From a virus: 64,000 bases of DNA. Below are positions 29,594 through 43,865 of the stretch, piece by piece. The notes under the pieces are model-generated. The model saw only the letters and a list, made by a program, of their open reading frames with translations, ran no database searches and was not told the origin of the DNA. The first letter of the stretch is position 1, and each line of letters starts with the position of its first letter. Position numbers and translations under genes: made by a program. The stretch is from positions 1 through 64,000 of the IMG/VR virus record IMGVR_UViG_3300025886_000014, one strand, 5' to 3'.

Positions 29594-30800
29594 TAGACTC
29601 TATCTTTTCCCTAAGATATTCAACATCTACTCTTAACTCATTTATTGCCTCTACAATAAGACCCATCATATTGCCATAACGAATTGCTTTATTTTCACCA
29701 TCAAATTCATAAACAACTTCTGGAAGAACTTCAGAAACTTCATCTGCCATAAGACCAGACATTTTTTCTTCTCTACCTTTATAGTTAAATGTATATCCAG
29801 CCAATGTACCAACTTTATCAAGAGCATTATCAATACGTTCAATATTTTCTTTCAATTTCCTATCAGATGCACTATTAAACGCTGTAATATCAGCATTTGA
29901 TGTAATCGCACCATCAGCATGTAATGTTGATGAGAGAGATAACGAATGACCATTATCTAGTACATCAGACCTAAGATATTTTGGATCAGTTATAGTATTA
30001 AGTATCAAAGAAGAGTCAACCCCAGCAGATGATCTTGCCAATACATACGCAGAATCAACTTGAGTTGATAGATTTGTTTCATCAATTAATTTGTGCCACG
30101 CCCCCCCATGAGAAAAATATCCCTTACCAGTTCCATGCACATGAGCAAACATACCATGATAAGTTGCTGCTGAAGGAAGATCGCCTTCTGTAGAATACAT
30201 ATTTGCATAAAGAGATTTGCCAGTTGTGATAATATTATTACTTCCCATATTAAGGTCAGCACTCGTAATATCACTTGTTCTTGCCGCTATATAATCACTA
30301 TCAACATGGGTAGTTACTCTTGCGTTTGTATAATATAGGTTTGTTGAACCTTCAGTAATTTCATCAGTATTATCTTTTGTCAGAATACTTGCGTCTACAT
30401 ACGCTTTTACTGATTGCTGAGATGGTACGTGAATGGCACTGTTTGATGCCATCCCATCTTCATCAAGTAAATCGCTTGTTTTAAGACCATCATTAATACC
30501 ATAACCTGCTAATGTAGTTGGTTTAAGTGTGATGTTTGAAAATGCTACAGTAGTAGGTTTTGTTAGAGTATTTAGAGTAGAACTATTTATTTTAGTGTAA
30601 ATATAATTGGAATCTACAAGTGCTTGAACTCCGCTACTTGTCAAAGCCCCAGTATTATTGTAATGCTGTTCTAAGTTTGCCAAGGTAACTTTTGCGGTAG
30701 CATAACCACCAGATAAATTGGTTCCTGTTACTACCAAAAAATTTAGATTACTATCTAAATCACTACTTGTGGCAGTTGGTAAATCTACTATTTTGACCAT
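29577..30800 (-). CDS. Tail fibre with C-terminal S74 intramolecular chaperone
   Basis: A 407-residue fibre. The C-terminal 100 residues (308-407) are a Peptidase_S74 / intramolecular chaperone autoprocessing domain: SASDRKLKENIERIDNALDK, then GLMADEVSEVLPEVV, then a terminal helix. The expected cleavage Ser and catalytic Lys are S312 and K317 (spacing five), matching the dyad of endosialidase-type chaperones, so the domain probably folds the trimer and is then cut off. Residues about 195-240 contain GDLPSAATYHGMFAHVHGTG, a module also present in the giant fibre. N-terminal part: KIVDLPTATSSDLDSNLNFL. The start at 30800 follows the previous fibre's stop by 11 bases. Confidence 0.85.
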   Translation of the reverse strand: MVKIVDLPTATSSDLDSNLNFLVVTGTNLSGGYATAKVTLANLEQHYNNTGALTSSGVQALVDSNYIYTKINSSTLNTLTKPTTVAFSNITLKPTTLAGYGINDGLKTSDLLDEDGMASNSAIHVPSQQSVKAYVDASILTKDNTDEITEGSTNLYYTNARVTTHVDSDYIAARTSDITSADLNMGSNNIITTGKSLYANMYSTEGDLPSAATYHGMFAHVHGTGKGYFSHGGAWHKLIDETNLSTQVDSAYVLARSSAGVDSSLILNTITDPKYLRSDVLDNGHSLSLSSTLHADGAITSNADITAFNSASDRKLKENIERIDNALDKVGTLAGYTFNYKGREEKMSGLMADEVSEVLPEVVYEFDGENKAIRYGNMMGLIVEAINELRVDVEYLREKIESNANNI

Positions 30801-30811
30801 CGTTTATCTTT

Positions 30812-32041
30812 CTATGCTATTATAAATGCTCTTACTTGGAGTTGCCATTTTGTTGCTGTTAATACACCAGTTCCCCCAGTATTTTTATCTTGATATATAC
30901 CTGGCCCACTAGATGCAATTCTAAGAGTTACATTTGTAGCATCTACTACCGCACCGAACCCTTGTTCTGGACCGTCATTGTCCGTACTTGGATGTATATC
31001 AATAATATCATTTACAACATATCCACCCTGTGCGTCAATGCATTTAAGTCTATAAGTTATAATATCAGGTTCTACACCTAAACCATGAGTGAAAACATTT
31101 TGACCAGAATTTGAAATTCCGACATAAGAACTTACATACTTTTTTACTAGTTTGCCAGAAACGTCTGTGGATATTTGTCTTTTTACTTGTAAAGGAGTCA
31201 TAATTAAATTATTTAAAAGACCACTATCTGCCTCAAAACTATCTGCAATCATATCGCCAGTAATTGAAGCACCAGATAGTGCGCCACTAAATGTTCCAGT
31301 TGTTGCTGTAATTCCACCAGTAGATGTTATAGCCGCTGAATTAATAGTGTTAAATGTTACGCTAGATGTTGAATCAACTTCTTGACCAATAGATATAGAA
31401 TCAGAACTTCCAATAGTAACACCAGTTCCACCCAAAGCATTAAAATTGTTTATTGATGCTAGAGTTGCCGCTGATAACGTAAGGCCAATTTTACCATTAG
31501 AATCAAGGGTAATATCACTATCGGTACTAAATGATCCACGCGCTCTAGAATCTGTAAAATATAGATTAGGGCTTCCTTCTGGAACATGTGAAGTAGTAAA
31601 CCCAACTTGAGAATCTTTTAAAAGACCATCCAGATTGTGGATTACTGGAATTCTTGCTTTATTAAAAACTCCAGTTGTTATTTTAGTTGTTGGTAGATTT
31701 GGAATTCTAGTAGTAGTAAATTGACCACTAGTAATTACACTTGCTGGTAGCGGATCAAGATGTGATGGACTTATTGAACTACAATTAAAAGAAAAAAGAC
31801 CGCTATTGGAATCATAAGACAATGTAGTATGACTACCGTTACCACCTGCTACAAGACTTAATGCTGTAGTAACGTAAGTTGAACCAGAACTTGCTTTAAT
31901 CTCATTAATTGCTTGAACCAAATCGGTTTTATTAGTTGTAGTGAGATTATCAGGTTCACCTACATATCCAGACATAGTGTTTGTTGCATTACGCCAAGTT
32001 TCTATTTTATCAGTTAAGTTTACTGTAATTTTTCTAGTCAT
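30812..32041 (-). CDS. Tail fibre, paralogue of the fibre on the other side of the radical-SAM operon
   Basis: A 409-residue protein. Its first about 140 residues (W-R-x-x-T-N... GYVGEPDNLTTTNKTDLVQA) match those of the fibre at 42452-43654 (W-R-M-K-T-N... YIGDLDDLNTTDSGSIVGA), including the following TGGxGxxxSLSYDS-type strand and the runs of 'ITTGxxxxARIP' repeats. The C-terminal about 130 residues (QNVFTHGLGVEPDIITYRLK) look like a different beta-sandwich tip. Its own late promoter lies at 32073-32080. It is probably a short fibre attached to the baseplate; a shared N-terminus with divergent C-terminus is typical of alternative receptor-binding proteins. Confidence 0.75.
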   Translation of the reverse strand: MTRKITVNLTDKIETWRNATNTMSGYVGEPDNLTTTNKTDLVQAINEIKASSGSTYVTTALSLVAGGNGSHTTLSYDSNSGLFSFNCSSISPSHLDPLPASVITSGQFTTTRIPNLPTTKITTGVFNKARIPVIHNLDGLLKDSQVGFTTSHVPEGSPNLYFTDSRARGSFSTDSDITLDSNGKIGLTLSAATLASINNFNALGGTGVTIGSSDSISIGQEVDSTSSVTFNTINSAAITSTGGITATTGTFSGALSGASITGDMIADSFEADSGLLNNLIMTPLQVKRQISTDVSGKLVKKYVSSYVGISNSGQNVFTHGLGVEPDIITYRLKCIDAQGGYVVNDIIDIHPSTDNDGPEQGFGAVVDATNVTLRIASSGPGIYQDKNTGGTGVLTATKWQLQVRAFIIA

Positions 32042-32072: not shown

Positions 32073-32080
32073 TATTTATA
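32073..32080 (-). promoter_or_regulatory. T4-type late promoter at the end of the radical-SAM operon
   Basis: TATAAATA on the minus strand, 31 bases upstream of the fibre ATG at 32041 and overlapping the last codons of the operon gene at 32076-32522. It restarts late transcription exactly where the non-structural operon ends. Confidence 0.8.
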
Positions 32081-32522
32081 AGGTTTCTAAGGCTAGTTTA
32101 AACTCATCCTCATAATATTTTCTAACATCTGGAACCATTCCTTTCATTTTTAAAGGAAATTCTATATTTTTCAATATTTGATCATAAGTATCAATATCTA
32201 AATGATATTGAATAAAATGTGGATCGTTTTCCGCTAGTAGATATTTATCATTTAATAATTCAAAGAAATTTTCATCAAAATCTTGAGATAACCAATATGC
32301 ATAACATATAGCAACAAAATATGATTTTGCTGGTCTAATAGTTTCATCAACATATTCATTAAAGTGTAGTAAAGCATCCCTTACAATATTTTCTTCACTC
32401 CATGTCACATCCATTTTATTCAAATCATCTGAATACTCTCTATTAAGTAAGTGATAAACTTGGGACGCTGTTCTCCATTTTCTCATACCAATCCAATAGC
32501 CCTTTATATCCGTTACATCCAT
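32076..32522 (-). CDS. Unrecognised protein ending the radical-SAM operon
   Basis: A 148-residue protein rich in Asp, Glu, Tyr and Phe, predicted mostly helical (for example PAKSYFVAICYAYWLSQDFD and KYYEDEFKLALETL), with no recognisable family or metal motif. The start at 32522 has a good ribosome-binding site (AGGA, eight bases before ATG) but makes an 80-base overlap with the radical-SAM gene upstream. A second ATG at 32414, encoding an identical MDVT start, would remove the overlap but lacks a clear ribosome-binding site. It resembles in length and composition the small partner or leader-binding proteins found with peptide-modifying radical-SAM enzymes, but no sequence evidence supports that. 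Confidence 0.6.
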   Translation of the reverse strand: MDVTDIKGYWIGMRKWRTASQVYHLLNREYSDDLNKMDVTWSEENIVRDALLHFNEYVDETIRPAKSYFVAICYAYWLSQDFDENFFELLNDKYLLAENDPHFIQYHLDIDTYDQILKNIEFPLKMKGMVPDVRKYYEDEFKLALETL

Positions 32523-33372
32523 TATCTAAATCCTTGACATATCGGTAATGTTCTGTTAAACAATTACCGAAATATTTGCATGAAGCGCAAATCGGACTTA
32601 TCATTTCTTCTTTTTCTTTTTCTGCCCAATCCAAGTAAGATTGAAAAGAATCCAACTCTTTAAAGTATTCCCTATCGTGAACATCAAACTCCAATACTCC
32701 AAACTTGCCGTTAGGAGTAATGTAAACATGATCATCCGAAAATGCATTGTATAATCCACTAAAAGACTCCTCTATCTTGTTTGCATTTACAAATTGAAAA
32801 TCCATTTGATTTTCTAATTCCATCCACTGAATAACAAACTTTTCAAAATCTAAATGCGTCACAGTAAATGCATTTGCTTGATTAATAGAATATGGTTTAA
32901 TCTCTACTGATTTAACAGCACCACACATATTCAATAATTTTATCATTTCATTTACATTCATCTTTAAAACTTGCGGTGATGCAAGAATAAGAACAGCAAT
33001 CGGTACTGGACTCATCATCATATTCTGAAATACCAAATTTGATTTCTCTCTTGCTTCAAAATCGTAAGATACTGATAGATAAACATCGTCATCAAAGAAA
33101 CCATCATGCATCATAGAATAGTTTGTGTTGATATTTATTTTTTTACCATAATACTTTTTAATTGTATTTTTAACATCATAAAAATAATTTTTCTTCATAG
33201 CACCAATTTCACCACCATATAGATCAACATGCTCTATATCTGGAATTTGTGAAAGTAATTCATCAAGTCTCTCAATTGAAATTTTTTTCTGATCGCCTAA
33301 TTGTTCTGAAGTAAGATAACAAAAATCACAGCGAAAATTACAAAAATAAGATGGATTTACAGATACAATCAT
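32443..33372 (-). CDS. Radical-SAM protein with SPASM-like C-terminus
   Basis: A 309-residue protein. The motif C11-x3-C15-x2-C18 (PSYFCNFRCDFCYLTSEQLG) binds the [4Fe-4S] cluster that cleaves S-adenosylmethionine; DLYGGEIG a little after is the usual SAM-contact GGE motif. The C-terminus (SPICASCKYFGNCLTEHYRY, then NGCNGY) supplies further cysteines in a SPASM-like arrangement that in related maturases holds an auxiliary cluster near the peptide substrate. Its ATG overlaps the TGA of another radical-SAM gene upstream (ATGA). The family mostly modifies ribosomally made peptides or proteins; the substrate here is unknown. Confidence 0.8.
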   Translation of the reverse strand: MIVSVNPSYFCNFRCDFCYLTSEQLGDQKKISIERLDELLSQIPDIEHVDLYGGEIGAMKKNYFYDVKNTIKKYYGKKININTNYSMMHDGFFDDDVYLSVSYDFEAREKSNLVFQNMMMSPVPIAVLILASPQVLKMNVNEMIKLLNMCGAVKSVEIKPYSINQANAFTVTHLDFEKFVIQWMELENQMDFQFVNANKIEESFSGLYNAFSDDHVYITPNGKFGVLEFDVHDREYFKELDSFQSYLDWAEKEKEEMISPICASCKYFGNCLTEHYRYVKDLDNGCNGYKGLLDWYEKMENSVPSLSLT

Positions 33373-34403
33373 GCATATTCTCTTACATATTCAGTAACTT
33401 TAGTATCCATTCTATTTAAAGAGATTATATCTTTAGCCATAGATTTCATATGTTGACAGTGATCTTCAACCATGTTATGTTGTTTCAAATCTTTAATTGT
33501 TTTACGGCATCCATTACAAATTTCAAACATAGGACAGGTAAAACACGAATTTTTAAGACTCATTAAACTCAAATCATTACTGAGAGGTGTCTCAAAACCC
33601 CCATTCATTTCATATTCAAAATCTATTGGTTTGTCAAAATCATCACCGAAAGAACCACAAGAATAGTAATCACCTTCTGGTTGAATATTACGAATGCCAC
33701 TATCACAGTTTCTGGACTGAGGACATATGGTTGGTTTTTTTCTTAACCTATTTAACATTTGTTGAGTATTATGTTCCCAATCACTAAGTCCTGCTTTCCA
33801 AATTTGAATATATCTCTCATAAATTTTTGATAATCTATATGGTGCTGACTGAGAACCAGATGCCATAGCATAATTTACCTTACAAACAACATTCATCTTC
33901 TTAGCAAGTTGTACAGTCTGTATTACAGTATCTTCATTTTCATCCACAATTACCGCAATAAATGATGGTCTATAGCCTACATGCTCAAGCATCGCATCAG
34001 AACATTTCCAAAAATCTTCTTCTGTAAATTCACTGTAATCTCCCTTGAGCCTACCACCGCCATATTGAAATGAAGTCCCAACACCAATTCTATGATGATT
34101 AAAGAGTTCTGCCCATTTTTTTGGTTTCATTAAAAAAGGATACAAATTGGTTGTAAGGGATATTGTCGCTGGCATATCATGTTTATCTAAAAACTCTATT
34201 AATTTCCAATAGTAGTTTGGCCTCATCATTAAAGGATCACCACCATTTACGATGATAGTTTGCGTTTCAGGAAATCTTTTAAGAAATTTGAATATCTTAT
34301 TCAAATCAAGTACAGCAGTGTTATCCTCTTGAGTAATTTTAGAGGAAGAACAAAATGAACATTTAAAATTGCATAATTCTGTTGGTTTGATAATTAAGTC
34401 CAT
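33369..34403 (-). CDS. Radical-SAM/SPASM protein
   Basis: A 344-residue protein. It has C11-x3-C15-x2-C18 (ELCNFKCSFCSSSK), then TIIVNGGDPLMM as the SAM-contact motif, and a long cysteine-bearing C-terminal half: CPQSRNCDSG, YYSCGSFG, NSCFTCPMFEICNGCRK and a final HC. This is a full SPASM-type layout able to bind one or two auxiliary iron-sulfur clusters, as in peptide maturases (PqqE, AlbA and anSME types). It lies in the operon between a 2OG-oxygenase-like gene and another radical-SAM gene, overlapping both by a few bases. The domain assignment is strong; the substrate is inferred to be a peptide or protein. Confidence 0.85.
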   Translation of the reverse strand: MDLIIKPTELCNFKCSFCSSSKITQEDNTAVLDLNKIFKFLKRFPETQTIIVNGGDPLMMRPNYYWKLIEFLDKHDMPATISLTTNLYPFLMKPKKWAELFNHHRIGVGTSFQYGGGRLKGDYSEFTEEDFWKCSDAMLEHVGYRPSFIAVIVDENEDTVIQTVQLAKKMNVVCKVNYAMASGSQSAPYRLSKIYERYIQIWKAGLSDWEHNTQQMLNRLRKKPTICPQSRNCDSGIRNIQPEGDYYSCGSFGDDFDKPIDFEYEMNGGFETPLSNDLSLMSLKNSCFTCPMFEICNGCRKTIKDLKQHNMVEDHCQHMKSMAKDIISLNRMDTKVTEYVREYA

Positions 34404-34978
34404 GGAGAATTCTTTATATTAAAACCAAAATTCATTGTGATTCTTTGCACATTGGGTTTTCTAAAATCCTCAACTCTATGTTGAAAATTTAAATCTTGAC
34501 TACCTAATATTAAATCATATTTTTTTGGTAAGTGATAACAAGTGACACGTTTATTTTGTCTCATATTTCGGAACATTATTTCACCACCGACTCCTTGTTC
34601 CATATCAGTGAAATATAGTAAAAAGAAAACATTTGCACCTTCTCTTAAATCATTATGCCAAGAACTAGAACCATCACATGCTCCATTCCAAATATATGAA
34701 TATATTAATTTTTTGCTCTCATAACAATCGTCATACTTTGATAAGTATGTATCATACAATAAATCAGCAGTTTTCTTTATTTTGTTTCGCATACCATTCA
34801 AATGATAATTCCAACAAATGCTATAACTTTTACAATCATCACCATCATTTAACCATTTTATTTTTGGAATATTATCACTACTCATATTTAACCACTTTAG
34901 TTTTGGCATAGTATCATTGATATGAATAAACATATTTTTATTATTTTCCATAAGATATCCTTGGTCTTTCATTTCCAT
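34394..34978 (-). CDS. 2-oxoglutarate/Fe(II)-dependent oxygenase-like protein
   Basis: A 194-residue protein. The motif WHNDLREG gives an HxD pair, and FQHRVEDFRK followed by QRITMNFGF gives the distal His and the Arg that would hold 2-oxoglutarate, the facial triad of this superfamily. It is a clear paralogue of the gene immediately upstream: GGEIMFRNMRQNKRVTCYHL here versus GGEIMYRNMKQNKRITAFHL there. The ATG overlaps the end of that gene by 10 bases. Members hydroxylate proteins, nucleotides or small molecules; in this operon a role in modifying a peptide or surface protein is inferred. An ATG six bases in is an equally possible start. Confidence 0.8.
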   Translation of the reverse strand: MEMKDQGYLMENNKNMFIHINDTMPKLKWLNMSSDNIPKIKWLNDGDDCKSYSICWNYHLNGMRNKIKKTADLLYDTYLSKYDDCYESKKLIYSYIWNGACDGSSSWHNDLREGANVFFLLYFTDMEQGVGGEIMFRNMRQNKRVTCYHLPKKYDLILGSQDLNFQHRVEDFRKPNVQRITMNFGFNIKNSPWT

Positions 34979-35523
34979 GGAGATTCCTTTACTTTAAATC
35001 TAAAAAGCATTGTTATTCTTTCTTGCTTCAATTCTCTTGTATGCTCAACTCTATGCTGAAACTTTAAATCATCACCTACACTTCCCATTACTATATCATA
35101 TTTTTTAGGTAGATGAAAAGCAGTTATTCTTTTATTTTGTTTCATATTTCTGTACATTATCTCACCACCATTATTCGGTTCTGAGTCTGTAAAATACAAA
35201 TTAAATTGTAAGTTGCCACCTTCAGTATCATGATGCCACTCACACGAACCAGTGTCCGTCCCATTCCACATAGTATAATAATCCAAGTGTTTTTCGGTTT
35301 CCCACGGCAAGTAGGTTTCCCAAAGTAAATCGGCAGTTTTTAGCATCTTACTTTTCATGGAGTGGAAATAATAATTCCACGCGACGCTTTGCCATCTGTC
35401 AGATTTATCAGAATTACTTCTCTTTAAGTATAACCATTTTAATTTTGGTAATGTATCTTTTATATGAATAAACATATCAGGATTATTTTCAATAAAACAT
35501 CCAGAATTTTTATCAATATTCAT
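34969..35523 (-). CDS. 2-oxoglutarate/Fe(II)-dependent oxygenase-like protein (tandem paralogue)
   Basis: A 184-residue protein read from the ATG at 35523, which follows the upstream stop by one base. Metal and cosubstrate residues: HHD in SCEWHHDTEGG (HxD), the His of FQHRVEHTRE, and the Arg of QERITMLFRF. It shares the KKYDIVMGS loop and the EIMYRNM strand with its downstream neighbour, so the pair came from a tandem duplication. An in-frame GTG at 35541 would add six residues but sits inside the previous gene. Substrate unknown; oxygen- and 2OG-dependent hydroxylation is the expected chemistry. Confidence 0.8.
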   Translation of the reverse strand: MNIDKNSGCFIENNPDMFIHIKDTLPKLKWLYLKRSNSDKSDRWQSVAWNYYFHSMKSKMLKTADLLWETYLPWETEKHLDYYTMWNGTDTGSCEWHHDTEGGNLQFNLYFTDSEPNNGGEIMYRNMKQNKRITAFHLPKKYDIVMGSVGDDLKFQHRVEHTRELKQERITMLFRFKVKESPWK

Positions 35524-35524
35524 T

Positions 35525-36055
35525 TTATTCCCAGCCCACACTTACAGTCATTCTTGGTTTAGAGCCAAAATAAGGTCTAATACAATGTACCATAGAACTA
35601 TTAAAAACTACTAACCTACCCACTTTTGGTTGTATTCTAGTCTTATTTTTTGGATATTGAAAAATATCAAGAGAATCATAAATATCCAACTCACCACCTT
35701 GCCAACCATTATTATCTATATCTATAAAAAATAATGTAATGATTTTAGACTCTGTTCCATCATGATGTGGTTCCCAAATCATATTTTCATTATTATCTTT
35801 TTCATACTTGACAATTTTTATCAAATGTGATATAGCAATTTTTTTTACATTTGAATCTTTCACCATCGCAATAGTTTTTGCTTTATTCAGATTTGGAAAG
35901 TCATCCATATTATCTTTAATATTTATCGCCATATTTTTTTGCATGTTAAATCTTGGCAAATCCTCAATAGAGGGATTGGCAAAAGAAAACTTGCTTTGTA
36001 TTCTTTCAAGTTCTTTTTTATTCAAAAAATCATCATAAATTTCTACAGAATTCAT
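35525..36055 (-). CDS. Prolyl-4-hydroxylase-type 2OG/Fe(II) oxygenase
   Basis: A 176-residue protein of the compact P4H-like form. EPHHDGTESK supplies HxD, WQGGELDIYD is the strand that follows the active site in this family, SSMVHCIRPYFGSKPRMTVS supplies the distal His and, ten residues on, the Arg for 2-oxoglutarate. It is only distantly related to the two paralogues downstream. Such enzymes are common in marine T4-like phages. The start at 36055 overlaps the upstream B12-type radical-SAM gene by 23 bases, placing it in the same transcript. Confidence 0.85.
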   Translation of the reverse strand: MNSVEIYDDFLNKKELERIQSKFSFANPSIEDLPRFNMQKNMAINIKDNMDDFPNLNKAKTIAMVKDSNVKKIAISHLIKIVKYEKDNNENMIWEPHHDGTESKIITLFFIDIDNNGWQGGELDIYDSLDIFQYPKNKTRIQPKVGRLVVFNSSMVHCIRPYFGSKPRMTVSVGWE

Positions 36056-37700
36056 CTAATCTTTCCTTTATCATTTCTTCATTTTTATTTAATAATATTT
36101 TCATTTCATTGACAATATCTTTACCTTTAAAGCGTCCCACATCAAACTTATCTATGCTATGTGGATTTTTATCATAAAATATATTTCTTATTAATTCTTT
36201 GTAAACAAAAAACATAGGAATATCATTCAATATATTCCACAATTCTTTTGCTACCTCGGAAACATTTTCATATGTAGTATATTCACTTATAAAACTTAAA
36301 CCTATATGTGGTGTAAACAAATTCATTATAAACATTTCTAGATATTCTTCAAACGTATATGAAAAACACTCAATTATAGTATCATATTCATATGCAACAT
36401 CCCCATATATTGGATTTACTTCAACATCATCCCATTTTCCGCTATAGTTACCATCAAATTGTGTTAATACTTTTGAAGTTTTTATTTTATACTTTTCTTG
36501 ATATTCTTTACTGGCAGTTTCAGTCGCTGGTAAAACCATGTAAGGATATCTAGTGTCTGCCCATACGTCAAGACCTTTCCATTCTTCCCAATCTTTTCCT
36601 TCATTATACCCAACTCTATAGTATACTTTAAATTCCTCGTAAAAATCTTTTAGTGTAGATCCCGGCATCGCTAAAATTAATTCTAAGTCTAACCATAATT
36701 CTTTTTCTTTAAAATTATTCCATTTATTAGTTAAATGATCCACCAACTCATAAGTTTCCTCAACATTAAGGTCTCTCCTGTTCGCAATTTTTCTCGCTTC
36801 TGGTGATATTGATTGTAAACTGATACTGATAACTTGACGAGTAATATCATGCTCAATCATAAAATCAAGCATTTCTTTTTTCTGTTCCAATTTTAAAGTT
36901 TTTAATACCGATAGATTTTCACCAATTTGAACCCCATTATCCACCATGTGCATCATCATTTCTCTATCACGTTCTTTAAACATTCCTGTATTAGCATCAC
37001 ACAAATCAATATGTACACCTTTGAACCGCCCTATAAATTCCATTTCATCCTTTATCACAGCCATAGGTTTTTTTAGAACTTTTGTTCCAGTACCGCCACC
37101 CCACTCACAATAAGAACACTTAAATGGGCATCCTCTAGTACTTTCATATATCAATGTTATTCGCTCATATAAGTCTATATTTTTAATGAAATGCTTATAT
37201 TCTTTGGTAAAATAATCTTCACATCTCTTATATACATTCGTATGTCCAAATGGAAGAGGAATTTTTAAAGAACTACCCAAATAAAATGGAATCTTTTTCT
37301 TATCAACAGAATCCTCTAAATACATATCAAGAAAGTATTGAACGAATATTTCTCCTGGAGCAAGAGGGTCTGCAACATAGTCATAATCTTTTATTATATC
37401 AGGGTCTTGTTGAGGACCACCCATAACTACTATGGTATCTGAGTCAAGGCCATTTCGTATCCTTTGGTTAATTTTATAATTCCAAACATAATTGGTAAAA
37501 AATACAATAGAACACCCTTTAACATTATCCAAACAATCTTGTATTGTAACTTCATTCCATTTGAATATTGGCTCCACCCAAGTAACTTTTTCTGGATATT
37601 TACCGTAATCTTCATAAAAACATTTAAAAAGCATCCAATGATAATTAAATTCGGCCCTTGAAGGTATTCCTGTTGGATTTATATAACCTACTTTAATCAC
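36033..37700 (-). CDS. B12-binding-like radical-SAM protein
   Basis: A 555-residue protein. Residues 1-125 look like a cobalamin-binding Rossmann-type domain: TIVVMGGPQQDPDII and YVADPLAPGEIFVQYFL follow the 'vvvGGp ... D.vv.GEge' pattern, though no DxHxxG ligand motif is visible, so cobalamin, if bound, would lack the lower-axial His. The radical-SAM core follows, with C191-x3-C195-x2-C198 (RGCPFKCSYCEWGGG). Class B enzymes of this layout methylate or rearrange unactivated carbons, including in peptides (PoyC-like). GTG start at 37700 with GGAG ten bases upstream; it overlaps the previous gene by eight bases. The domain calls are strong, the reaction is not known. Confidence 0.8.
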   Translation of the reverse strand: MIKVGYINPTGIPSRAEFNYHWMLFKCFYEDYGKYPEKVTWVEPIFKWNEVTIQDCLDNVKGCSIVFFTNYVWNYKINQRIRNGLDSDTIVVMGGPQQDPDIIKDYDYVADPLAPGEIFVQYFLDMYLEDSVDKKKIPFYLGSSLKIPLPFGHTNVYKRCEDYFTKEYKHFIKNIDLYERITLIYESTRGCPFKCSYCEWGGGTGTKVLKKPMAVIKDEMEFIGRFKGVHIDLCDANTGMFKERDREMMMHMVDNGVQIGENLSVLKTLKLEQKKEMLDFMIEHDITRQVISISLQSISPEARKIANRRDLNVEETYELVDHLTNKWNNFKEKELWLDLELILAMPGSTLKDFYEEFKVYYRVGYNEGKDWEEWKGLDVWADTRYPYMVLPATETASKEYQEKYKIKTSKVLTQFDGNYSGKWDDVEVNPIYGDVAYEYDTIIECFSYTFEEYLEMFIMNLFTPHIGLSFISEYTTYENVSEVAKELWNILNDIPMFFVYKELIRNIFYDKNPHSIDKFDVGRFKGKDIVNEMKILLNKNEEMIKERLDEFCRNL

Positions 37701-38331
37701 CTTTATAGAACTCCATATTCATAAATTGTATCTTTGTGAACCCTTTTAAAACCTTAGACGTATATGGAGTTTCCATTATAGCACTGTCTGGATGGGTAGA
37801 CATTTTTTTCATTTGAGTGTATAGTGTTTTGGCTGTAGGAACGTAAATAGGTCTATTCTCAATTTCAGTTTTGCAAAATTTCACCATGATTTTATAAAAG
37901 TCTATTTCTTGCCTTCTGGTTAAGCAATCTCTATAAATTCCATTTATTTGAATATTTGACATTATTGTATAATTTTTAGTTTTCTCTGTACCAATCCACC
38001 CTAACTCATAATCATTATTCACTGCTGTTTTGGGTGACCCAGTAAATTGAGTAGTGTAATCTTCTATCATAGATTTACTATTAACTTCAGATAATAAATT
38101 ACTTGATAATGGAACACTAAAAACGTACACTTCACTACTCAAAAAATTATCTAAAAAATGAATACATGGGGGTAATTCTATATCAACTGAATAATCAAAT
38201 ACTGTACGGCACACATTATAGTCTATATCAATTTCTTTTATTGGAGTAATTAATCTTTTCGCTCTTGTTGGAAACCTATTTATAAAAGATTGACTTATTG
38301 GAGATTTATCACCATTTCCATAAAAAAACAT
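37693..38331 (-). CDS. Unrecognised operon protein (212 aa)
   Basis: I do not recognise this protein. It has mixed alpha/beta composition, three scattered cysteines (for example YNVCRTVFDYS and VKFCKTEIENR) and no paired metal motif, signal peptide or membrane helix. The C-terminal part ends VLKGFTKIQFMNMEFYKGD. It lies between two radical-SAM genes with a one-base gap upstream and an eight-base overlap downstream, so it is co-translated with them and probably acts in the same pathway, as an adaptor or transferase; that is position-based inference only. Confidence 0.6.
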   Translation of the reverse strand: MFFYGNGDKSPISQSFINRFPTRAKRLITPIKEIDIDYNVCRTVFDYSVDIELPPCIHFLDNFLSSEVYVFSVPLSSNLLSEVNSKSMIEDYTTQFTGSPKTAVNNDYELGWIGTEKTKNYTIMSNIQINGIYRDCLTRRQEIDFYKIMVKFCKTEIENRPIYVPTAKTLYTQMKKMSTHPDSAIMETPYTSKVLKGFTKIQFMNMEFYKGD

Positions 38332-38332
38332 C

Positions 38333-39373
38333 TCATCTTAATCCTTGATTTTCAATATATCTATGTGTCATCTTATAAACACATTCATCAAAAATTTCCT
38401 CTGCATATTTGTAATCGTGTGCCATGAAACACCCAAGAGTACATCTATGGAAATATTCACAAGTAGAGCAATTGTACTTCTCAAGAAATGCTTTCTCAAT
38501 AGGCTTATTATTGGCCTTTTGTATATCAGTTTTATACATTGCTTTATCTCTTGGCTCTTGAACAAGATTTCCACACAAACACATAGTCCCATCCTCAAGA
38601 ACTAATTTAGATGATCTGCATGAAACAACATTACGTTCATTTTCTATCCAAGAACGAATAGGTTCAATCTTAGGATAATTATCTATAAAATGTGTAAAAA
38701 TATCGTAATGTTCTTTATCTGTCGGCATACTTCTTTCTGCTTGACAATCGGGCATGTAGTAATCAGCATAAACCTTAACACCTTTATGATATAGATCATG
38801 CATAAAATCTTTTGGATCAGTAAGCCAATATCTTATATTTGATTTAGTTAGAAGAACACCTATACCTTCTAAATCATCCCAAAAATCATATACATTCTCT
38901 TTGAAAATTTCTAAGTTTGGTTTGTTAAATCTACCTCTAGGATCATATGAGGTTACAAGTTTTGTAGCACATCCCATATCCCTACACGCTTTTAATATTT
39001 CTCTCACATAATCCTTTTTACTAATAACAAGATTAGTTACCCAATTAATACTCACTTCATCAAAGTTATATTTTTTTCCTAAGTTTACTATTCCTTGAGC
39101 AAGAGAAATGTAGTCATTCTTCAATTTTTCATCAAAAATTTCATCGGCAAATATTTCGCCACCCATAATATTTAAAACAACACGTTTTCTCATTTCTTTC
39201 TCAAAGAATTTTTCTATTGATTCTAATTTATCTAAAACTGTATCAATACCCACAATGTTGTCATGGTCTTGCCAGCAAAATGGGCAAGATAGATTACAAA
39301 ACTCAAACAAATGAATTGTATATTCTTGCTGCTTATCTCTTTTATCTCTTAAAATAAAATCTACTAAATCCAA
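38333..39373 (-). CDS. Radical-SAM/SPASM protein with TTG start
   Basis: A 346-residue protein with C26-x3-C30-x2-C33 (FCNLSCPFCWQDH), GGEIF as the SAM motif, and C-terminal cysteines in CLCGNLVQE, NCSTCEYFHRCTLGCFMAHD and DECVYKMTH, again a SPASM-like auxiliary-cluster region. The reading frame begins at a TTG that follows the upstream TGA directly; an AGGAG eight bases before it supports this start. The Trp right after the third cysteine (CW) is a common variant in peptide maturases. Its reaction is unknown; chemistry on a ribosomal peptide is the best-supported class. Confidence 0.8.
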   Translation of the reverse strand: MDLVDFILRDKRDKQQEYTIHLFEFCNLSCPFCWQDHDNIVGIDTVLDKLESIEKFFEKEMRKRVVLNIMGGEIFADEIFDEKLKNDYISLAQGIVNLGKKYNFDEVSINWVTNLVISKKDYVREILKACRDMGCATKLVTSYDPRGRFNKPNLEIFKENVYDFWDDLEGIGVLLTKSNIRYWLTDPKDFMHDLYHKGVKVYADYYMPDCQAERSMPTDKEHYDIFTHFIDNYPKIEPIRSWIENERNVVSCRSSKLVLEDGTMCLCGNLVQEPRDKAMYKTDIQKANNKPIEKAFLEKYNCSTCEYFHRCTLGCFMAHDYKYAEEIFDECVYKMTHRYIENQGLR

Positions 39374-40027
39374 TCAAACTTCTCCTGCACCAACTCCCCA
39401 AGTTAATAGGAAAAGTGGATTTTTTTCATAGGACCAATAATCAAATAAACCCTTTCCATTAAACATATATTCATTAAAATATTTAGAATAATAGGTCAAG
39501 TTTTTTTCATCTAATCCATTGTAGTAATAATAAAAATCTTCATGTTTTAATAAAGATACAAAATTAATACCTTTTATATCATCAGTATCATCTTCTTCAT
39601 GTGATATTACCCAATCTTTCATCTCATCATCTTGGATAATATACATATTATAAAGTGTCAATGAATCTAACTTTTTAATCCAAGTATCAATGACTTCTTT
39701 GTTATCATCAATGAAATCTTGATAGCAACCTAAACATTCTAAAGATAGATTTTTTTTCACCAAAAGAACCTCAATAATAAATTCTTCTAAAACTTTAATA
39801 TTTAATATTTGTGGAAACTGAAGATATATTTTTGCAAGGTTCTCTAAATCATTTCCTTCAACTTTAATATCACAAGGTAACTCTAAGTTGCTTAAATAAA
39901 CGAGTAATTTCTCACCTTGTAACTCACTATTTTCATAATCAATAATAAAATTAATACTATCATCAGAAAAATATTTTTGTAAATCATCAATACCTAGTGG
40001 TGCAGTCACTGTAACATAATTATTCAT
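39374..40027 (-). CDS. Unrecognised acidic operon protein (217 aa)
   Basis: A very acidic protein (many Asp and Glu, for example SHEEDDTDDIKG) with Tyr-rich segments such as EDFYYYYNGLDEKN. It has no recognisable domain. Leu-rich amphipathic stretches (KIYLQFPQILNIKVLEEFII) suggest helices. It lies between the CHSN-tail gene and a radical-SAM gene, seven bases after the former. By position it could be an adaptor that presents the substrate, like the peptide-recognition partners of many peptide-modifying enzymes, but nothing in the sequence proves it. Confidence 0.6.
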   Translation of the reverse strand: MNNYVTVTAPLGIDDLQKYFSDDSINFIIDYENSELQGEKLLVYLSNLELPCDIKVEGNDLENLAKIYLQFPQILNIKVLEEFIIEVLLVKKNLSLECLGCYQDFIDDNKEVIDTWIKKLDSLTLYNMYIIQDDEMKDWVISHEEDDTDDIKGINFVSLLKHEDFYYYYNGLDEKNLTYYSKYFNEYMFNGKGLFDYWSYEKNPLFLLTWGVGAGEV

Positions 40028-40034
40028 AATAAAA

Positions 40035-40862
40035 TTATCTCCTATTTCTTGATGAATGGCAATTAGAGTGGCAATTAGAATGGCATACAGATTCAGTATA
40101 TCCTGCTATATTTCCATCTATAGCAACAGTTTTCCATGCCTCATATAGATTATTGAATAATGTTTCCATATCACCATCATCAATTAAATCTCCAGCGACT
40201 ATCATTGAATGATCAACATCAGAAGAATCAATGGTGAAACTATGTCTAGGAGTTAAAACGCCCACTCCACTAACACTTATTGCTTTACCTATAACAGCAC
40301 CACTTCGTAAACTAACTGCATATTTTTGTGTCGCTGATGTACAAGCCGATTGAGCGTCTGAACGTAAGGTCTCTGCTTCTTGTTTTGTGGAAGGTTTTCC
40401 ACCAATACCATATGAATTCCAATTTGTAAAAAACTCTGAGATAAATCCACCAAAAGTAACACCAGCCCCAGCAGATACTTCGTTGTCTAAAGCATCTCTC
40501 CATTCACAAGCAAAGTTTTTTTCCTTTTCTGCATTTTCGGTAGATGCCGTATTGCGTGACGGTATTGGTATATTTCCACCTGGAATACCAGTTACAGTTC
40601 TTGTGGCAGTAAATTTTCTAACTCTAGTATATTGGTTAATATCCTTTAATAGAACAGCAAAAATATTTGATGCTGTTATTGGCCCATCCAACAAATCAGG
40701 ATTTGTTGTCACACCAGTTGTATTTCCATGAAAATAACTTGCTACTGATGCAAATGGTAGATTATCATCACCAAACACAATAGCATCATTAATTTTATCA
40801 GTCACAAACTGTCTGTATTTTGTAATTACAGGGTTTTCTGTAATAGGGTCTGATATTGCCAT
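40035..40862 (-). CDS. Putative modified structural protein with a C-terminal Cys/His/Ser repeat tail
   Basis: A 275-residue protein. Residues 1-259 form an ordinary-looking body rich in Ala, Ser, Thr and Asp (MAISDPITENPVITKYRQFV, then GGNIPIPSRNTAST and FGGFISEFFTNW). The last 16 residues are CHSNCHSNCHSSRNRR, three CHS units spaced by Asn and ending in basic residues. Outside the tail there are only two cysteines. The gene lies directly between two radical-SAM/SPASM genes in an operon that also encodes 2OG-oxygenase-like proteins. A repeated Cys/His/Ser tail next to radical-SAM/SPASM genes is the layout of a ribosomal-peptide precursor whose core is cross-linked or hydroxylated; an alternative is a metal-binding tail on a fibre. 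The body does not look like a typical short leader. AGGAG-type ribosome-binding site before ATG. Confidence 0.7.
   Translation of the reverse strand: MAISDPITENPVITKYRQFVTDKINDAIVFGDDNLPFASVASYFHGNTTGVTTNPDLLDGPITASNIFAVLLKDINQYTRVRKFTATRTVTGIPGGNIPIPSRNTASTENAEKEKNFACEWRDALDNEVSAGAGVTFGGFISEFFTNWNSYGIGGKPSTKQEAETLRSDAQSACTSATQKYAVSLRSGAVIGKAISVSGVGVLTPRHSFTIDSSDVDHSMIVAGDLIDDGDMETLFNNLYEAWKTVAIDGNIAGYTESVCHSNCHSNCHSSRNRR
40056..40085 (-). repeat. 12-bp tandem repeat coding for CHSN units
   Basis: On the plus strand gcaattagagtg is followed by gcaattagaatg and a partial third copy. Each 12 bases encode Cys-His-Ser-Asn in the minus frame. The near-identity of the units points to recent slippage-type expansion of the tail. 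Confidence 0.85.
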
Positions 40863-40872
40863 TCTTTATCTC

Positions 40873-41892
40873 CTAGACATTCTTTGCCAATTCCATCATT
40901 AAACTTTTAGGTGCGCCACACACATCACCTTCCCATCCTAATTGGTGACAATCACCACCACAATATTTTGCAACAGGACAAGAAAGGCAATTGGGGTTTC
41001 TCATTTTTTCTTCAATAATAGTTCGTATTCTTCTAGGACTATTTATAAGAGTTTTAATAGAATCATCCAAAGTTCCGAATTGAAATTCTGGTGCTGAATT
41101 CGGACAACCACTTATTGTACCATCTCCATTTATTGTAAATAATTTTGTTTCACAATCTCTACAAAAAGTGCCACACGTAGTAAGAGTTTTCTCAAACTTA
41201 GCATATACATTTTCAAGAAAGTCATTTTCAAACCAATCTCGCGCACCATATTTTTCACTTTGTTGATGCATTTTCAAAAAATAAGCATCTAATTCTTTAT
41301 TAGATGGAAATATCTCTGATGCTTCTCTAGCATTACCATTATTAGTTAATCTCTCTAAGGATACTTCTTGAACCCCTAATCTTCTACACCATCTCAATAA
41401 TACAATAGGGTCTTTTTCTAAAGTATCTTTAGTAAGACTAATAAACAAACGTATAGTTACACCATCTGCTAAAAGAGACTTGACGTTTTTATGCCATAAG
41501 TTATATTGTCTTTGATTATCAAATCTTATCTTACGGTCCCATGAAGTTCCTAACCTATTCCTAAGTGGGCCTTTTATAAATTCTCTATGCTGATCTTTTA
41601 ATTTATATACTAAATTGGTTGTGGCTCCCCAACTCATATTATCCCAAAGACCATCACAAGCATCATACACTTTTCTCATTTGCCCTACAGGTACAAGAAA
41701 TGGTTCGCCACCATGAAACTCTAAATGAATACCATCATCCTTCGCAGGTTTTTCTTCACGAAATCTATGTATCCAATCAACTATCTTATCAGTATTCCAA
41801 TAAATTTTAGCACCGTTGCTACCAGAGGTAAAACAGTGCTTACAGTTTAATTGACAAGTTTCTGTGGTTTTAAGATATACTGACCAAAACAC
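40873..41892 (-). CDS. Radical-SAM/SPASM maturase next to the CHSN-tail gene
   Basis: A 339-residue protein, the clearest maturase of the set. C13-x3-C17-x2-C20 (ETCQLNCKHCFTSG) is the radical-SAM site and H60-GGEP (61-64) the SAM-contact motif. A middle stretch (TCGTFCRDCETKLF, then GDGTISGCPNS) and the C-terminal C302-x2-C305-x5-C311-x3-C315-x9-C325 (NCLSCPVAKYCGGDCHQLGW) form a full SPASM domain for two auxiliary clusters, as in anaerobic sulfatase-maturating and sactipeptide-type enzymes. GTG start at 41892 with GAGG upstream; it overlaps the cupin gene by 23 bases. It lies immediately upstream of the CHSN-tail gene, making that protein the most likely substrate (inference). Confidence 0.85.
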   Translation of the reverse strand: MFWSVYLKTTETCQLNCKHCFTSGSNGAKIYWNTDKIVDWIHRFREEKPAKDDGIHLEFHGGEPFLVPVGQMRKVYDACDGLWDNMSWGATTNLVYKLKDQHREFIKGPLRNRLGTSWDRKIRFDNQRQYNLWHKNVKSLLADGVTIRLFISLTKDTLEKDPIVLLRWCRRLGVQEVSLERLTNNGNAREASEIFPSNKELDAYFLKMHQQSEKYGARDWFENDFLENVYAKFEKTLTTCGTFCRDCETKLFTINGDGTISGCPNSAPEFQFGTLDDSIKTLINSPRRIRTIIEEKMRNPNCLSCPVAKYCGGDCHQLGWEGDVCGAPKSLMMELAKNV

Positions 41893-42388
41893 TATTCATT
41901 TTATCCTCTATAAATTTTTCTAAGCCAAAACTCAAAGTAAGTGCTTCATGTTCATTAAATGCTTGGTGAGGGGTATTCGCAGGAATATGTAGTGTTGCAC
42001 CTTCCTTCAAAGTAAATACTGGTTCACCACCCATAGTATGACCTTCCATTGCTATCGTTTTCATTCCTTCACAACAATATATAACGACATTATCTGGATC
42101 AGTATGTTTTTTGAATGAATGAGCATTTTTTTCAGCATAAAATAAATGACATGTTATTGGGCCATTATGATCATACATATCTTCTAGTTCTAAACAATAA
42201 GAAAAAATCTCCGAGTTATATGCTTCCATTCTTTCAATTTTTATTGAATTTGTATTTTTATTTGCAAGAGTATCCGCAAAATTTTTCATTAGATGTTCTC
42301 TGCCATTTTCATCTATTGCATAAACCATATTTTGTTCATACGCAAGATCACTCGCAATTATTTTTAAGAATTGACTCTTAGTAAGCAT
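41870..42388 (-). CDS. Cupin/JmjC-like protein, first gene of the radical-SAM operon
   Basis: A 172-residue protein. The C-terminal half is a double-stranded beta-helix: FKKHTDPDNVVIYCCEGMKT provides HxD, LKEGATLHIPANTPHQAFNE provides the distal His, and ALTLSFGLEKF is the closing strand. This is the JmjC/cupin-8 pattern of protein hydroxylases, but the identical fold also serves as a sensor or non-catalytic cupin. It opens the operon, 20-27 bases after a perfect sigma70-type promoter, with AAGGA eight bases before its ATG. It could be an oxygenase acting with the 2OG enzymes downstream. Fold fairly sure, activity not. Confidence 0.7.
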   Translation of the reverse strand: MLTKSQFLKIIASDLAYEQNMVYAIDENGREHLMKNFADTLANKNTNSIKIERMEAYNSEIFSYCLELEDMYDHNGPITCHLFYAEKNAHSFKKHTDPDNVVIYCCEGMKTIAMEGHTMGGEPVFTLKEGATLHIPANTPHQAFNEHEALTLSFGLEKFIEDKMNSVLVSIS

Positions 42389-42414
42389 AACAAAATCCTT
42401 TAATGACTAAGACT

Positions 42415-42443
42415 ATTATAAACTACATAGCCTAAAATGTCAA
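42415..42443 (-). promoter_or_regulatory. Consensus sigma70-type promoter of the radical-SAM operon
   Basis: On the minus strand TTGACA (42443-42438) and TATAAT (42420-42415) are separated by exactly 17 bases, the textbook consensus for the host housekeeping sigma factor. It lies in the 63-base gap between the fibre stop (42452) and the cupin ATG (42388). T4-like phages use such promoters early, before the TATAAATA promoters, so this operon may be transcribed early or continuously. Confidence 0.85.
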
Positions 42444-42451
42444 TATGTAAT

Positions 42452-43654
42452 TTAGAGTTTAAGGACACACTCAATCATTTTTTCACCCTCAAAATCATTA
42501 CTTTCAAGAGCGAGACCTACTAATTCTGCACCATTAAACTCTGAACTAGCAACACCATCACGCCAAGTATATACTGCCTCACCTTTTCTAATTTGACCAT
42601 TTACTCTTACGGGAACCCTACCTTTAAGTGCAAGTGCTTGTCCTTCTGCTTCTGCATTCATAAGAAATGCTGGCTCTGCTGAAACGACTCCAATTGGAAT
42701 ACCAGAAGTGGTACATCTTGTAGTTTCACCAGTTGGCCCAAAATTTACCATCATAACAGTGCCTATTGGATAATCTTCATCTGTGGTATATTTTTCCGCA
42801 AGGTCAGCAAAATTAGCAGATGTAGCATTACCATGAAAAGTTGTTGCGTACATATTTGCGTATTTAAACGATGAACTACCCACACTGTAAGAGTTATCTG
42901 TGTCTGGAACAATATGCCCACCGTGATTTATTTGACCATTAAATGTTGATGTAACAGAAAGAGCGGAAGTCCCAACAGTAACCGTATTGTAAAAAGTACT
43001 AGTTCCATTATATACTCTTGTACCAGTGTATGATGTGGAAACATTATTTCTTACAAGAGATGGGTCCATTGCTTCTAATGGTATTGTAGTACCATCAGTC
43101 ACTATTTTACTAGCAGGAATATCAGGTATTCTTCCTATTAGAAAAGTTCCCCTATTAATTTTACTAGTATGTAAAGATGGAATACGATCACTATCAAATT
43201 GCCCAGCAGTGGTTTGATTTGCAGATAGATATGGTAATCTAGCAGTTGCTAATGTTCCAGTTGTTATAACCCCAGCATCTATTGCTGGTATTAATGATGG
43301 ATTAATAGTTCCAGTTGTTAATTTTCCAGCATCTAAATTAGGAATATCGTTTGCCGTGAGTGGATTACATGTGAATGTAAATACCCCACCACCAATACCT
43401 GCTGAATCTGTATAAGATAAACTTGAATATGTACCAGACCCACCAGTTGATAATGCTAATGCAGTTCTTGCTAATCCTTGCACTTCACCATTAACAGCAA
43501 ATTTACTTTCAATTGAATTTACTGCACCGACAATACTTCCACTATCAGTTGTATTTAAATCATCTAAATCACCTATATAAGTTGCAGTAAGGTTTGTTTT
43601 CATTCTCCAAGCATTTACTGAATTACTGAGATCAACATTTTCTAATCTAGCCAT
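42452..43654 (-). CDS. Tail fibre with conserved C-terminal domain
   Basis: A 400-residue fibre. The N-terminal about 150 residues are paralogous to those of the fibre at 30812-32041. The middle repeats 'IPALDAGxITTGTLxxARLP'-like units. The C-terminal part holds SYSVGSSSFKYANMYATTFH, then ANFADLAEKYTTDEDYPIGT, a C-terminal domain widely shared by fibres of marine T4-like phages. The start is the ATG at 43654, served by AGGTG six bases upstream; an in-frame GTG at 43663 is less likely. It is the last structural gene before the radical-SAM operon and ends nine bases before that operon's -35 box. A baseplate-attached short fibre is the likely role. Confidence 0.8.
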   Translation of the reverse strand: MARLENVDLSNSVNAWRMKTNLTATYIGDLDDLNTTDSGSIVGAVNSIESKFAVNGEVQGLARTALALSTGGSGTYSSLSYTDSAGIGGGVFTFTCNPLTANDIPNLDAGKLTTGTINPSLIPAIDAGVITTGTLATARLPYLSANQTTAGQFDSDRIPSLHTSKINRGTFLIGRIPDIPASKIVTDGTTIPLEAMDPSLVRNNVSTSYTGTRVYNGTSTFYNTVTVGTSALSVTSTFNGQINHGGHIVPDTDNSYSVGSSSFKYANMYATTFHGNATSANFADLAEKYTTDEDYPIGTVMMVNFGPTGETTRCTTSGIPIGVVSAEPAFLMNAEAEGQALALKGRVPVRVNGQIRKGEAVYTWRDGVASSEFNGAELVGLALESNDFEGEKMIECVLKL

Positions 43655-43865
43655 TAGTGTCACCTAACTTTCTGGAAATTTCTACAAGCAGATTTTTCAT
43701 ATCCGCTACTTCTGATTTTAATACTTGAAATTCTTCTTTTTCTTCTCGCATTTTTTTCTTTCTTGCCTTCGCTTTTTCAATTTCTACAAGATCACTATTA
43801 ATTATAGCACCAGATTCTAAATCTTTGACATAATTTTTTTCACCTTGAATTTTAGAAAATAACAT
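43647..43865 (-). CDS. Small coiled-coil protein of the baseplate/fibre region
   Basis: A 72-residue protein (MLFSKIQGEKNYVKDLESGA) followed by a highly charged helix (EKAKARKKKMREEKEEFQVL) and a heptad-like end (VADMKNLLVEISRKLGDTNG). The second two-thirds is predicted to be one long coiled coil. The ATG at 43865 has AGGTG six bases upstream; an upstream in-frame GTG at 43874 would lie inside the preceding gene. It overlaps the fibre gene start by eight bases. It may be a linker or a trimerisation or assembly helper for the adjacent fibre. Confidence 0.65.
   Translation of the reverse strand: MLFSKIQGEKNYVKDLESGAIINSDLVEIEKAKARKKKMREEKEEFQVLKSEVADMKNLLVEISRKLGDTNG

Follow-up and report, generated by a model that had tools for sequence, protein, structure and literature searches.

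A conserved set of radical-SAM and oxygenase genes in a viral structural region, an invariant Cys-His protein tail and a probable pathway of protein maturation

The stretch of DNA analysed here, called the window, comprises positions 1 to 64,000 of the IMG/VR record IMGVR_UViG_3300025886_000014, a viral fragment of 66,122 bases. It carries a set of 13 consecutive open reading frames (ORFs), all on the minus strand, which run from 42388 down to 32076 with intergenic gaps of -80 to +10 nucleotides (nt). The order is cupin, rSAM1, CHxS protein, P217, rSAM2, P212, B12-rSAM, three 2-oxoglutarate (2OG) oxygenases, rSAM3, rSAM4 and P148, where rSAM stands for radical S-adenosylmethionine enzyme. A preliminary description of this DNA had pointed to a tightly packed operon of 13 genes, and such an operon is indeed present; only its end, placed at 42443, lies 55 nt past the start of the cupin gene. 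The 13 genes probably constitute a protein-maturation cassette, a pathway resembling those of ribosomally synthesized and post-translationally modified peptides (RiPPs), which would modify the C-terminal tail of a probable virion protein. The members of the set are listed below, with lengths in amino acids (aa); the locus counts, here and in the text, refer to the 59 related loci that are seen in full.

41870..42388, minus strand: cupin / JmjC-like Fe(II) enzyme, 172 aa; Pfam Cupin_2 and JmjC_2 above cut-off; 57/59 loci.
40873..41892, minus strand: rSAM1 with SPASM domain, 339 aa; CX3CX2C; TIGR04085; phrog_1802 1.8e-61; 59/59 loci.
40035..40862, minus strand: CHxS protein, proposed substrate, 275 aa; invariant tail on a divergent body; no Pfam or NCBIfam family.
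About 40035-40085 including the stop codon, minus strand: CHxS tail CHSNCHSNCHSSRNRR, residues 260-275; predicted flexible C-terminus after the folded body.
39374..40027, minus strand: P217, 217 aa, conserved partner that does not look enzymatic; phrog_20767; 59/59 loci.
38333..39373, minus strand: rSAM2, 346 aa; CX3CX2C and a C-terminal Cys cluster; phrog_1802 2.3e-41; 59/59 loci.
37693..38331, minus strand: P212, 212 aa, function unassigned; occupies the P356 position of most loci; 5/59 loci.
36033..37700, minus strand: B12-dependent rSAM, 555 aa, C-methyltransferase-like; Radical_SAM above cut-off; TokK/CysS/KedN5 kin; 32/59 loci.
35525..36055, minus strand: 2OG-Fe(II) oxygenase OGa, 176 aa, HHD motif; PF13640 above cut-off; 17/59 loci.
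34969..35541, minus strand: 2OG-Fe(II) oxygenase OGb1, 190 aa; PF13640 7.8e-4, below cut-off; HxD...H...R invariant in its family.
34394..34978, minus strand: 2OG-Fe(II) oxygenase OGb2, 194 aa; no Pfam match of its own; same family as OGb1.
33369..34403, minus strand: rSAM3, 344 aa, C-terminal Cys cluster; Radical_SAM 41.1 bits; 57/59 loci.
32443..33372, minus strand: rSAM4, 309 aa; Radical_SAM 33.2 bits; 57/59 loci.
32076..32522, minus strand: P148, 148 aa, conserved final gene of the set; phrog_20737 2.1e-31; no Pfam match; 49/59 loci.

The third gene (40862-40035) encodes a protein with the C-terminal sequence CHSNCHSNCHSSRNRR, and in its relatives the tail follows the consensus CHx[S/N]-CHx[S/N]-CHx[S/A/N]-R[G/S/N]-RR. 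The motif ends exactly at the C-terminus, as marked by the stop codon, in 180/180 distinct proteins, and in an alignment of 74 CHxS proteins the median identity is 81% in the tail versus 30% in the body, which varies from 120 to 360 aa across the relatives. All 180 proteins have Cys at tail positions 0, 4 and 8, C and H being preset by the search in part of this set. As the pattern presets C, H and R in the proteins found by motif, the fair evidence is provided by the set found through rSAM1, by the exact C-terminal position and by the S/N and G positions, which the search left free: Ser or Asn is the third residue after each Cys in 91-97% of the 180 proteins, and Gly is present between the Arg residues in 89%. 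One relative (L121, 8105-8878) has a tail of four repeats instead of three, CHSNCHSNCHSNCHTNRSRR, with seven rSAM genes in view. Binding of c-type heme (CxxxCH) by the tail was considered and rejected, the repeats being overlapping and heme genes being absent. Gly at tail position 13 is associated with OGc (p = 6e-5, uncorrected) and with P356 (1e-4), ancestry being uncontrolled, and these associations are not used here.

The CHxS protein has no informative Pfam or NCBIfam family match. When the whole protein was used in a tblastn search against phages, zero matches were obtained; in a later query the alignment covered only residues 1-170 of 186, such that the tail is probably masked by the low-complexity filter, and the tail was instead searched for by DNA pattern scans. 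The AlphaFold model of the body has a mean pLDDT (predicted local distance difference test) of 87.6 and a pTM (predicted template modelling score) of 0.84, the last 15 residues having a pLDDT of 53-57. The predicted contrast between a confidently folded body and a low-confidence tail is in favour of the proposed modification of the tail. Sequence and fold searches of the Protein Data Bank (PDB) gave no match (best fold E 0.29); in the viral fold library, two matches pass E = 0.001 (A0A8A6C8P8 and A0A6J5PFP0), and the next, weaker match is a 296-aa protein of phage Atu_ph07, which has the same length as the CHxS protein of that phage.

The association of the CHxS gene with rSAM1 was approached from both sides. 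Alignment of rSAM1 against IMG/VR gave 361 relatives, 80 of which were kept, and the CHxS gene is the next gene in 74/74 loci where at least 700 bp follow rSAM1, the other 6 of the 80 ending sooner. A tail-pattern scan of IMG/VR without rSAM input gave at least 120 stretches; among the matches listed, an rSAM gene lies on the same strand within 4 kb in 109/114 loci with the motif at the C-terminus of an ORF, and most of the remaining five are contigs that end close to the CHxS gene. Four of 120 listed viral matches (L095, L130, L144 and L147) are chance, out-of-frame or low-complexity hits. It could be argued that the tail, with its three Cys and three His, is a site for Fe, Zn or Cu and that the enzymes act on fibres, lipopolysaccharide precursors or host proteins, since Cys-His clusters readily bind metals, the operon is located among fibre genes and several substrates are conceivable for the enzymes. 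This is unlikely when considering that the CHxS-rSAM1 linkage is essentially complete in both search directions, that a plain metal site needs neither the exact C-terminal R-x-R-R nor four to seven rSAM enzymes, and that the (CHxS)3 register is like that of the repeat substrates of known rSAM maturases.

In all 59 loci rSAM1, the CHxS gene, P217 and rSAM2 are present, and cupin, rSAM3 and rSAM4 are each found in 97%. The other genes are more variable: P356 (86%), P148 (83%), OGb (81%), OGc (68%), B12-rSAM (54%), OGa (29%) and rSAMx (19%), such that a locus has 4 to 7 rSAM genes and 0 to 5 2OG oxygenases. The cassette is therefore a fixed core with changing tailoring enzymes. The genes are linked in constant order in 59/59 loci, and this ordered recurrence shows that the gene set is not due to chance; homologues scattered and unlinked among the relatives, named beforehand as evidence against one conserved unit, are not what is observed. 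In a second type of locus (L090, L114, L123, L143, L168 and L175-L177), two tandem short CHxS genes (125-140 aa) are followed by several rSAMx genes and P217, and one contig, IMGVR_UViG_3300025138_000014, has both types (L030/L184 and L168).

The identification of five rSAM proteins is borne out. The CX3CX2C motif in a Radical_SAM domain is found in all of them, at residues 13-20 of rSAM1, 26-33 of rSAM2, 191-198 of B12-rSAM, 11-18 of rSAM3 and 11-18 of rSAM4. B12-rSAM (36.4 bits), rSAM3 (41.1 bits) and rSAM4 (33.2 bits) pass the Pfam Radical_SAM cut-off; rSAM1 (18.5 bits) and rSAM2 (23.8 bits) stay under it and match the phage family phrog_1802 (1.8e-61 and 2.3e-41), and rSAM1 also passes the SPASM cut-off (TIGR04085, 35.1 versus 27 bits). 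Of known enzymes, rSAM1 and rSAM3 are most like peptide and protein maturases (PapB, DynA and the anaerobic sulfatase-maturating enzyme, anSME), at scores far under the family cut-offs; for rSAM3 the top NCBIfam likeness is DynA (1.8e-15, under the cut-off). B12-rSAM matches the KedN5 model (1e-23, under the cut-off) and, over residues 40-356, TokK in the PDB (2.8e-14). Could these enzymes instead be auxiliary metabolic genes of Fe-S, heme or nucleotide metabolism, adjacent to the CHxS gene by hitch-hiking in a genomic island? A T4-like genome, TARA_ERS488813_N000010, has 12 rSAM genes along with Fe-S assembly genes, interpreted as Fe-S metabolism (PMC5332604), and rSAM/SPASM genes have been catalogued as ahbD (PMC9301287). 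Four distinct rSAM enzymes, however, accompany one non-metabolic protein in fixed order and with near-complete co-occurrence, and all heme and queuosine families of NCBIfam stay under their cut-offs, which makes a metabolic role very improbable.

The three oxygenases and the cupin/JmjC-like protein of the preliminary description are also recovered. The first oxygenase (36055-35525) passes PF13640, the second (35541-34969) falls below its cut-off and the third (34978-34394) has no Pfam match. The latter two belong to one family, OGb, in which the HxD, Y, H and R residues are invariant in 18/18 members (H108, D110, H167 and R179 among them) and 12/18 match PF13640. The HxD...H triad and Arg of Fe(II)/2OG oxygenases are thus present in OGb by family, and OGa is assigned via PF13640. 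In the cupin family H95, D97 and H141 are invariant and 15/19 members match JmjC_2; because of this HxD...H motif and the Cupin_2 and JmjC_2 matches above cut-off, the cupin is probably a fourth Fe(II)/2OG enzyme. P217 is predicted with confidence by AlphaFold (pLDDT 95), and sequence and fold searches of the PDB with it gave no match. For P212, a kinship to P356, P300 or the 2OG families was rejected, as hhalign showed none.

The cassette lies between the following two genes.

42452..43663, minus strand: tail-fibre gene, upstream flank; phrog_19602 tail fibre 1.5e-15.
30812..32041, minus strand: probable tail-fibre gene, downstream flank; weak tail-fibre PHROG matches, 1.6e-4.

Tail-fibre matches are therefore seen on both sides, as first described, those on the downstream side being weak. 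Further upstream there are T4-like baseplate wedge, hub and tube-cap genes, an amidase and a DUF4815 protein. A tail fibre at 29577-30800 has a C-terminal Peptidase_S74 chaperone domain, which also occurs in the prey-recognition fibres of Bdellovibrio (PMC10769870). Elsewhere in the window, two ORFs at 43867-49154 (1444 and 317 aa), which overlap at base 48201, match successive parts of one long family, phrog_358 / DUF4815; they are either one gene that has been split or two genuine genes. At 912-27442, three very long ORFs (5716, 2202 and 923 aa) follow each other; in a PHROG scan, the 2202- and 923-aa proteins gave no match.

Queries with rSAM1, rSAM3 and P217 each match the identical 7 of 50,697 phage records, in agreement with the conservation of the set as one unit. 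Named relatives (rSAM1 identity 38-50%) are Atu_ph07 of Agrobacterium, SURPRISE13, FLC6 and FLC8 of Burkholderia, Phosso of Sinorhizobium and DT01 of Pseudomonas. The set is found in jumbo phages of Agrobacterium, Sinorhizobium, Burkholderia, Ralstonia and Pseudomonas, and in hundreds of viral contigs besides. In the four isolates examined, the gene directly after rSAM1 encodes a different body that ends in CHSSCHASCHNSRSRR, CHSSCHTSCHGSRGRR, CHTSCHASCHSSRSRR or CHTSCHTSCHSARGRR. In SURPRISE13 (L007, 21406-22583), two dihydrofolate-reductase genes lie within the CHxS cluster, between rSAM2 and rSAM3.

The set is not confined to phages. A genome-wide tail scan and its follow-up located it on contigs of Bdellovibrionota metagenome-assembled genomes (MAGs) with clearly chromosomal neighbours, which on reading the sequence by eye include thiolase, acyl-CoA dehydrogenase, cytochrome oxidase, methionyl-tRNA synthetase and pyruvate kinase. 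The tail is found in 8/291 Bdellovibrionota genomes, and the loci with CHxS and rSAM genes are L273, L298-L300, L302-L303 and L304-L311; in their readable CHxS start regions a signal peptide is not obvious. No tail sheath was detected in six tail-bearing Bdellovibrionota genomes, and terminase searches in the bacterial genomes were empty. Most tail-pattern matches in genome_contigs are likewise chance, out-of-frame or low-complexity hits, many being in high-GC actinobacteria. Two loci (L210 and L248) are on contigs that had been assigned to MAGs, one of Euryarchaeota and one of Bacteroidetes; these contigs may come from phages and be misbinned, or the phages may have other hosts. In the rSAM1 tree, the support is too weak for a direction of gene movement between phages and bacteria.

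The chromosomal copies would suit a released compound, and multi-step C-terminal tailoring is typical of carrier-bound natural products, such that the CHxS body could be a carrier from which a modified peptide is released as a metallophore, toxin or signal, as for mycofactocin, pyrroloquinoline quinone and peptide-carrier products. The gene set, however, has no conserved protease, exporter or immunity gene, the body is a fold of 120-360 aa encoded amid tail genes, and the tail is invariant, whereas released peptides usually diversify. We consider this explanation improbable.

With respect to the location of the CHxS protein, mass spectrometry (MS) of Atu_ph07 has shown that most virion proteins fall in gene clusters, including that of coding sequences (CDS) 170-215 (PMC6102473). 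The CHxS protein of Atu_ph07 is gp170, at the edge of this cluster; gp215 is the major head protein, which confirms that the CDS numbering agrees. The position of gp170 is suggestive only. Taken with the surrounding baseplate and tail-fibre genes, it is on balance in favour of the CHxS protein being in the virion.

Genes, order, motifs, linkage and the invariant tail are observed directly. That the tail is what is modified is very likely. The preliminary description had proposed one shared substrate, and this is now much better supported because an invariant C-terminal tail is found on the protein adjoining rSAM1; the sharing of this substrate by all enzymes is still an inference, though a likely one. 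In the proposed pathway, the CHxS protein would be made as a folded body with a free C-terminal tail, (CHx[S/N])3-R[G/S/N]RR, and a folded phage protein would thus take the place of the RiPP precursor. In the infected cell, the three Cys-His repeats would be the target of radical chemistry by rSAM1 to rSAM4, whose most likely outcome at Cys, His or Ser/Asn is oxidation or a cross-link of the thioether or carbon-carbon kind. Tail residues would be hydroxylated by the 2OG oxygenases together with the JmjC-like cupin and, in this phage, the B12-dependent rSAM would add a methyl group, P217 and P148 (with P356 in most relatives) presenting the substrate or acting as a scaffold for the enzymes. The virion would then take up the matured protein, probably in its tail, baseplate or fibres, and a tip that is rigid, modified or metal-binding may there aid host recognition or penetration.

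Several points weigh against this pathway. Some of the enzymes could target neighbouring proteins, for example the fibres; a leader or a RiPP recognition element (RRE) domain was not identified; and the CHxS body resembles no known virion protein by fold. The chromosomal Bdellovibrionota copies, in genomes without a detected tail sheath, show that the set can exist outside virions. In addition, the three virion-protein clusters of Atu_ph07 each span 45 genes (PMC6102473), so that their edges may be hand-drawn.

Bdellovibrio recognises its prey by phage-like fibres (PMC10769870), and by analogy phages and Bdellovibrionota may use the set alike to attack cells. A wider proposal, which we put forward tentatively and hold to be nearly as probable as its opposite, is that large tailed phages, and predatory bacteria with the same genes, use a hitherto unknown multi-enzyme radical and oxygenase pathway to give a particle or surface protein a C-terminal tip with cross-links, hydroxyl groups and sometimes methyl groups, which is required for entry into Gram-negative cells. 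The chromosomal copies in predatory bacteria hint at such a common use. The preliminary description had seen the enzymes as typical of peptide modification and not of virion assembly; this contrast may be false, as the protein that is the likely substrate probably belongs to the virion. If the proposal is true, RiPP-like radical chemistry takes place on proteins of the phage particle, and virion biogenesis includes a step of chemical maturation without described precedent; rSAM genes listed as metabolic (such as ahbD in PMC9301287) need re-reading, and a large untapped enzyme set with a clear 16-residue substrate is at hand. The system is directly testable, as cultured phages exist (Atu_ph07, SURPRISE13, FLC6 and DT01).

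Among known systems, the best model likenesses are supplied by rSAM/SPASM RiPP maturation (PapB, DynA, CXXX-repeat and His-Xaa-Ser), where the substrate is likewise ribosomal, has a short Cys/His/Ser repeat and is encoded next to a SPASM-type rSAM, but the cassette scores far below the family cut-offs. When compared with the His-Xaa-Ser models, rSAM1 reaches 33.6 bits for TIGR03978 (cut-off 370) and rSAM3 31.7 for TIGR03977 (267.9), and no HxsA-type precursor is recognised among the CHxS proteins by NCBIfam. The CXXX-repeat model TIGR04115 gives 37.9 bits versus 350, and Cys is present at every fourth tail residue as in CXXX-repeat substrates, C and H being partly preset by the search. For ranthipeptides and dynobactin, rSAM1 has 42.7 of 340 bits (PapB) and rSAM3 56.8 of 450 (DynA). 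By these scores the set belongs to none of the RiPP families tested; the general RiPP arrangement, a conserved core beside dedicated enzymes, is present. The cassette differs in that its substrate is a folded phage protein of 120-360 aa with a C-terminal tail and in that at least four distinct rSAM enzymes are joined with several oxygenases.

rSAM1 and rSAM3 also resemble anSME, which modifies Cys or Ser in a short motif of a folded protein; scores of 38.8 and 46.7 bits compare with a TIGR03942 cut-off of 349, and the gene set has no sulfatase (the anSME substrate, with a C/S-x-P/A-x-R motif). TokK, CysS and KedN5 act on small-molecule intermediates, and the B12-rSAM gene belongs here to the CHxS set. 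The cupin shares its HxD...H motif and JmjC_2 matches with the JmjC ribosomal-protein hydroxylases (PF08007, RoxA/YcfD type), of which it has half the size, covering the C-terminal part of the model only.

The same type of cluster has been reported in structural regions of jumbo and T4-like phages, such that the gene set is not undescribed, as first thought, but unexplained (PMC12390700, PMC5332604, PMC7029224, PMC8066314, PMC11898562). Phage 332-Vera has eight rSAM genes in its structural cluster, termed highly unusual (PMC12390700), pelagimyophages have rSAM cassettes in the host-recognition cluster (PMC7029224), an rSAM cluster is known from RP12/RP31 (PMC5468394), and cupin, rSAM and 2OG genes are listed for the Burkholderia jumbo phages FLC6 (PMC8066314) and SURPRISE13 (PMC11898562), both of which have the CHxS set. 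These reports go no further than listing the genes. In the open-licence literature searched, no paper links the phage rSAM clusters to a substrate or to the CHxS tail. What is new here is the likely substrate with its invariant tail, by which the unexplained abundance of rSAM genes in phage structural regions can now be put to the test as a system in which the substrate and the sequence of its tail are specified.

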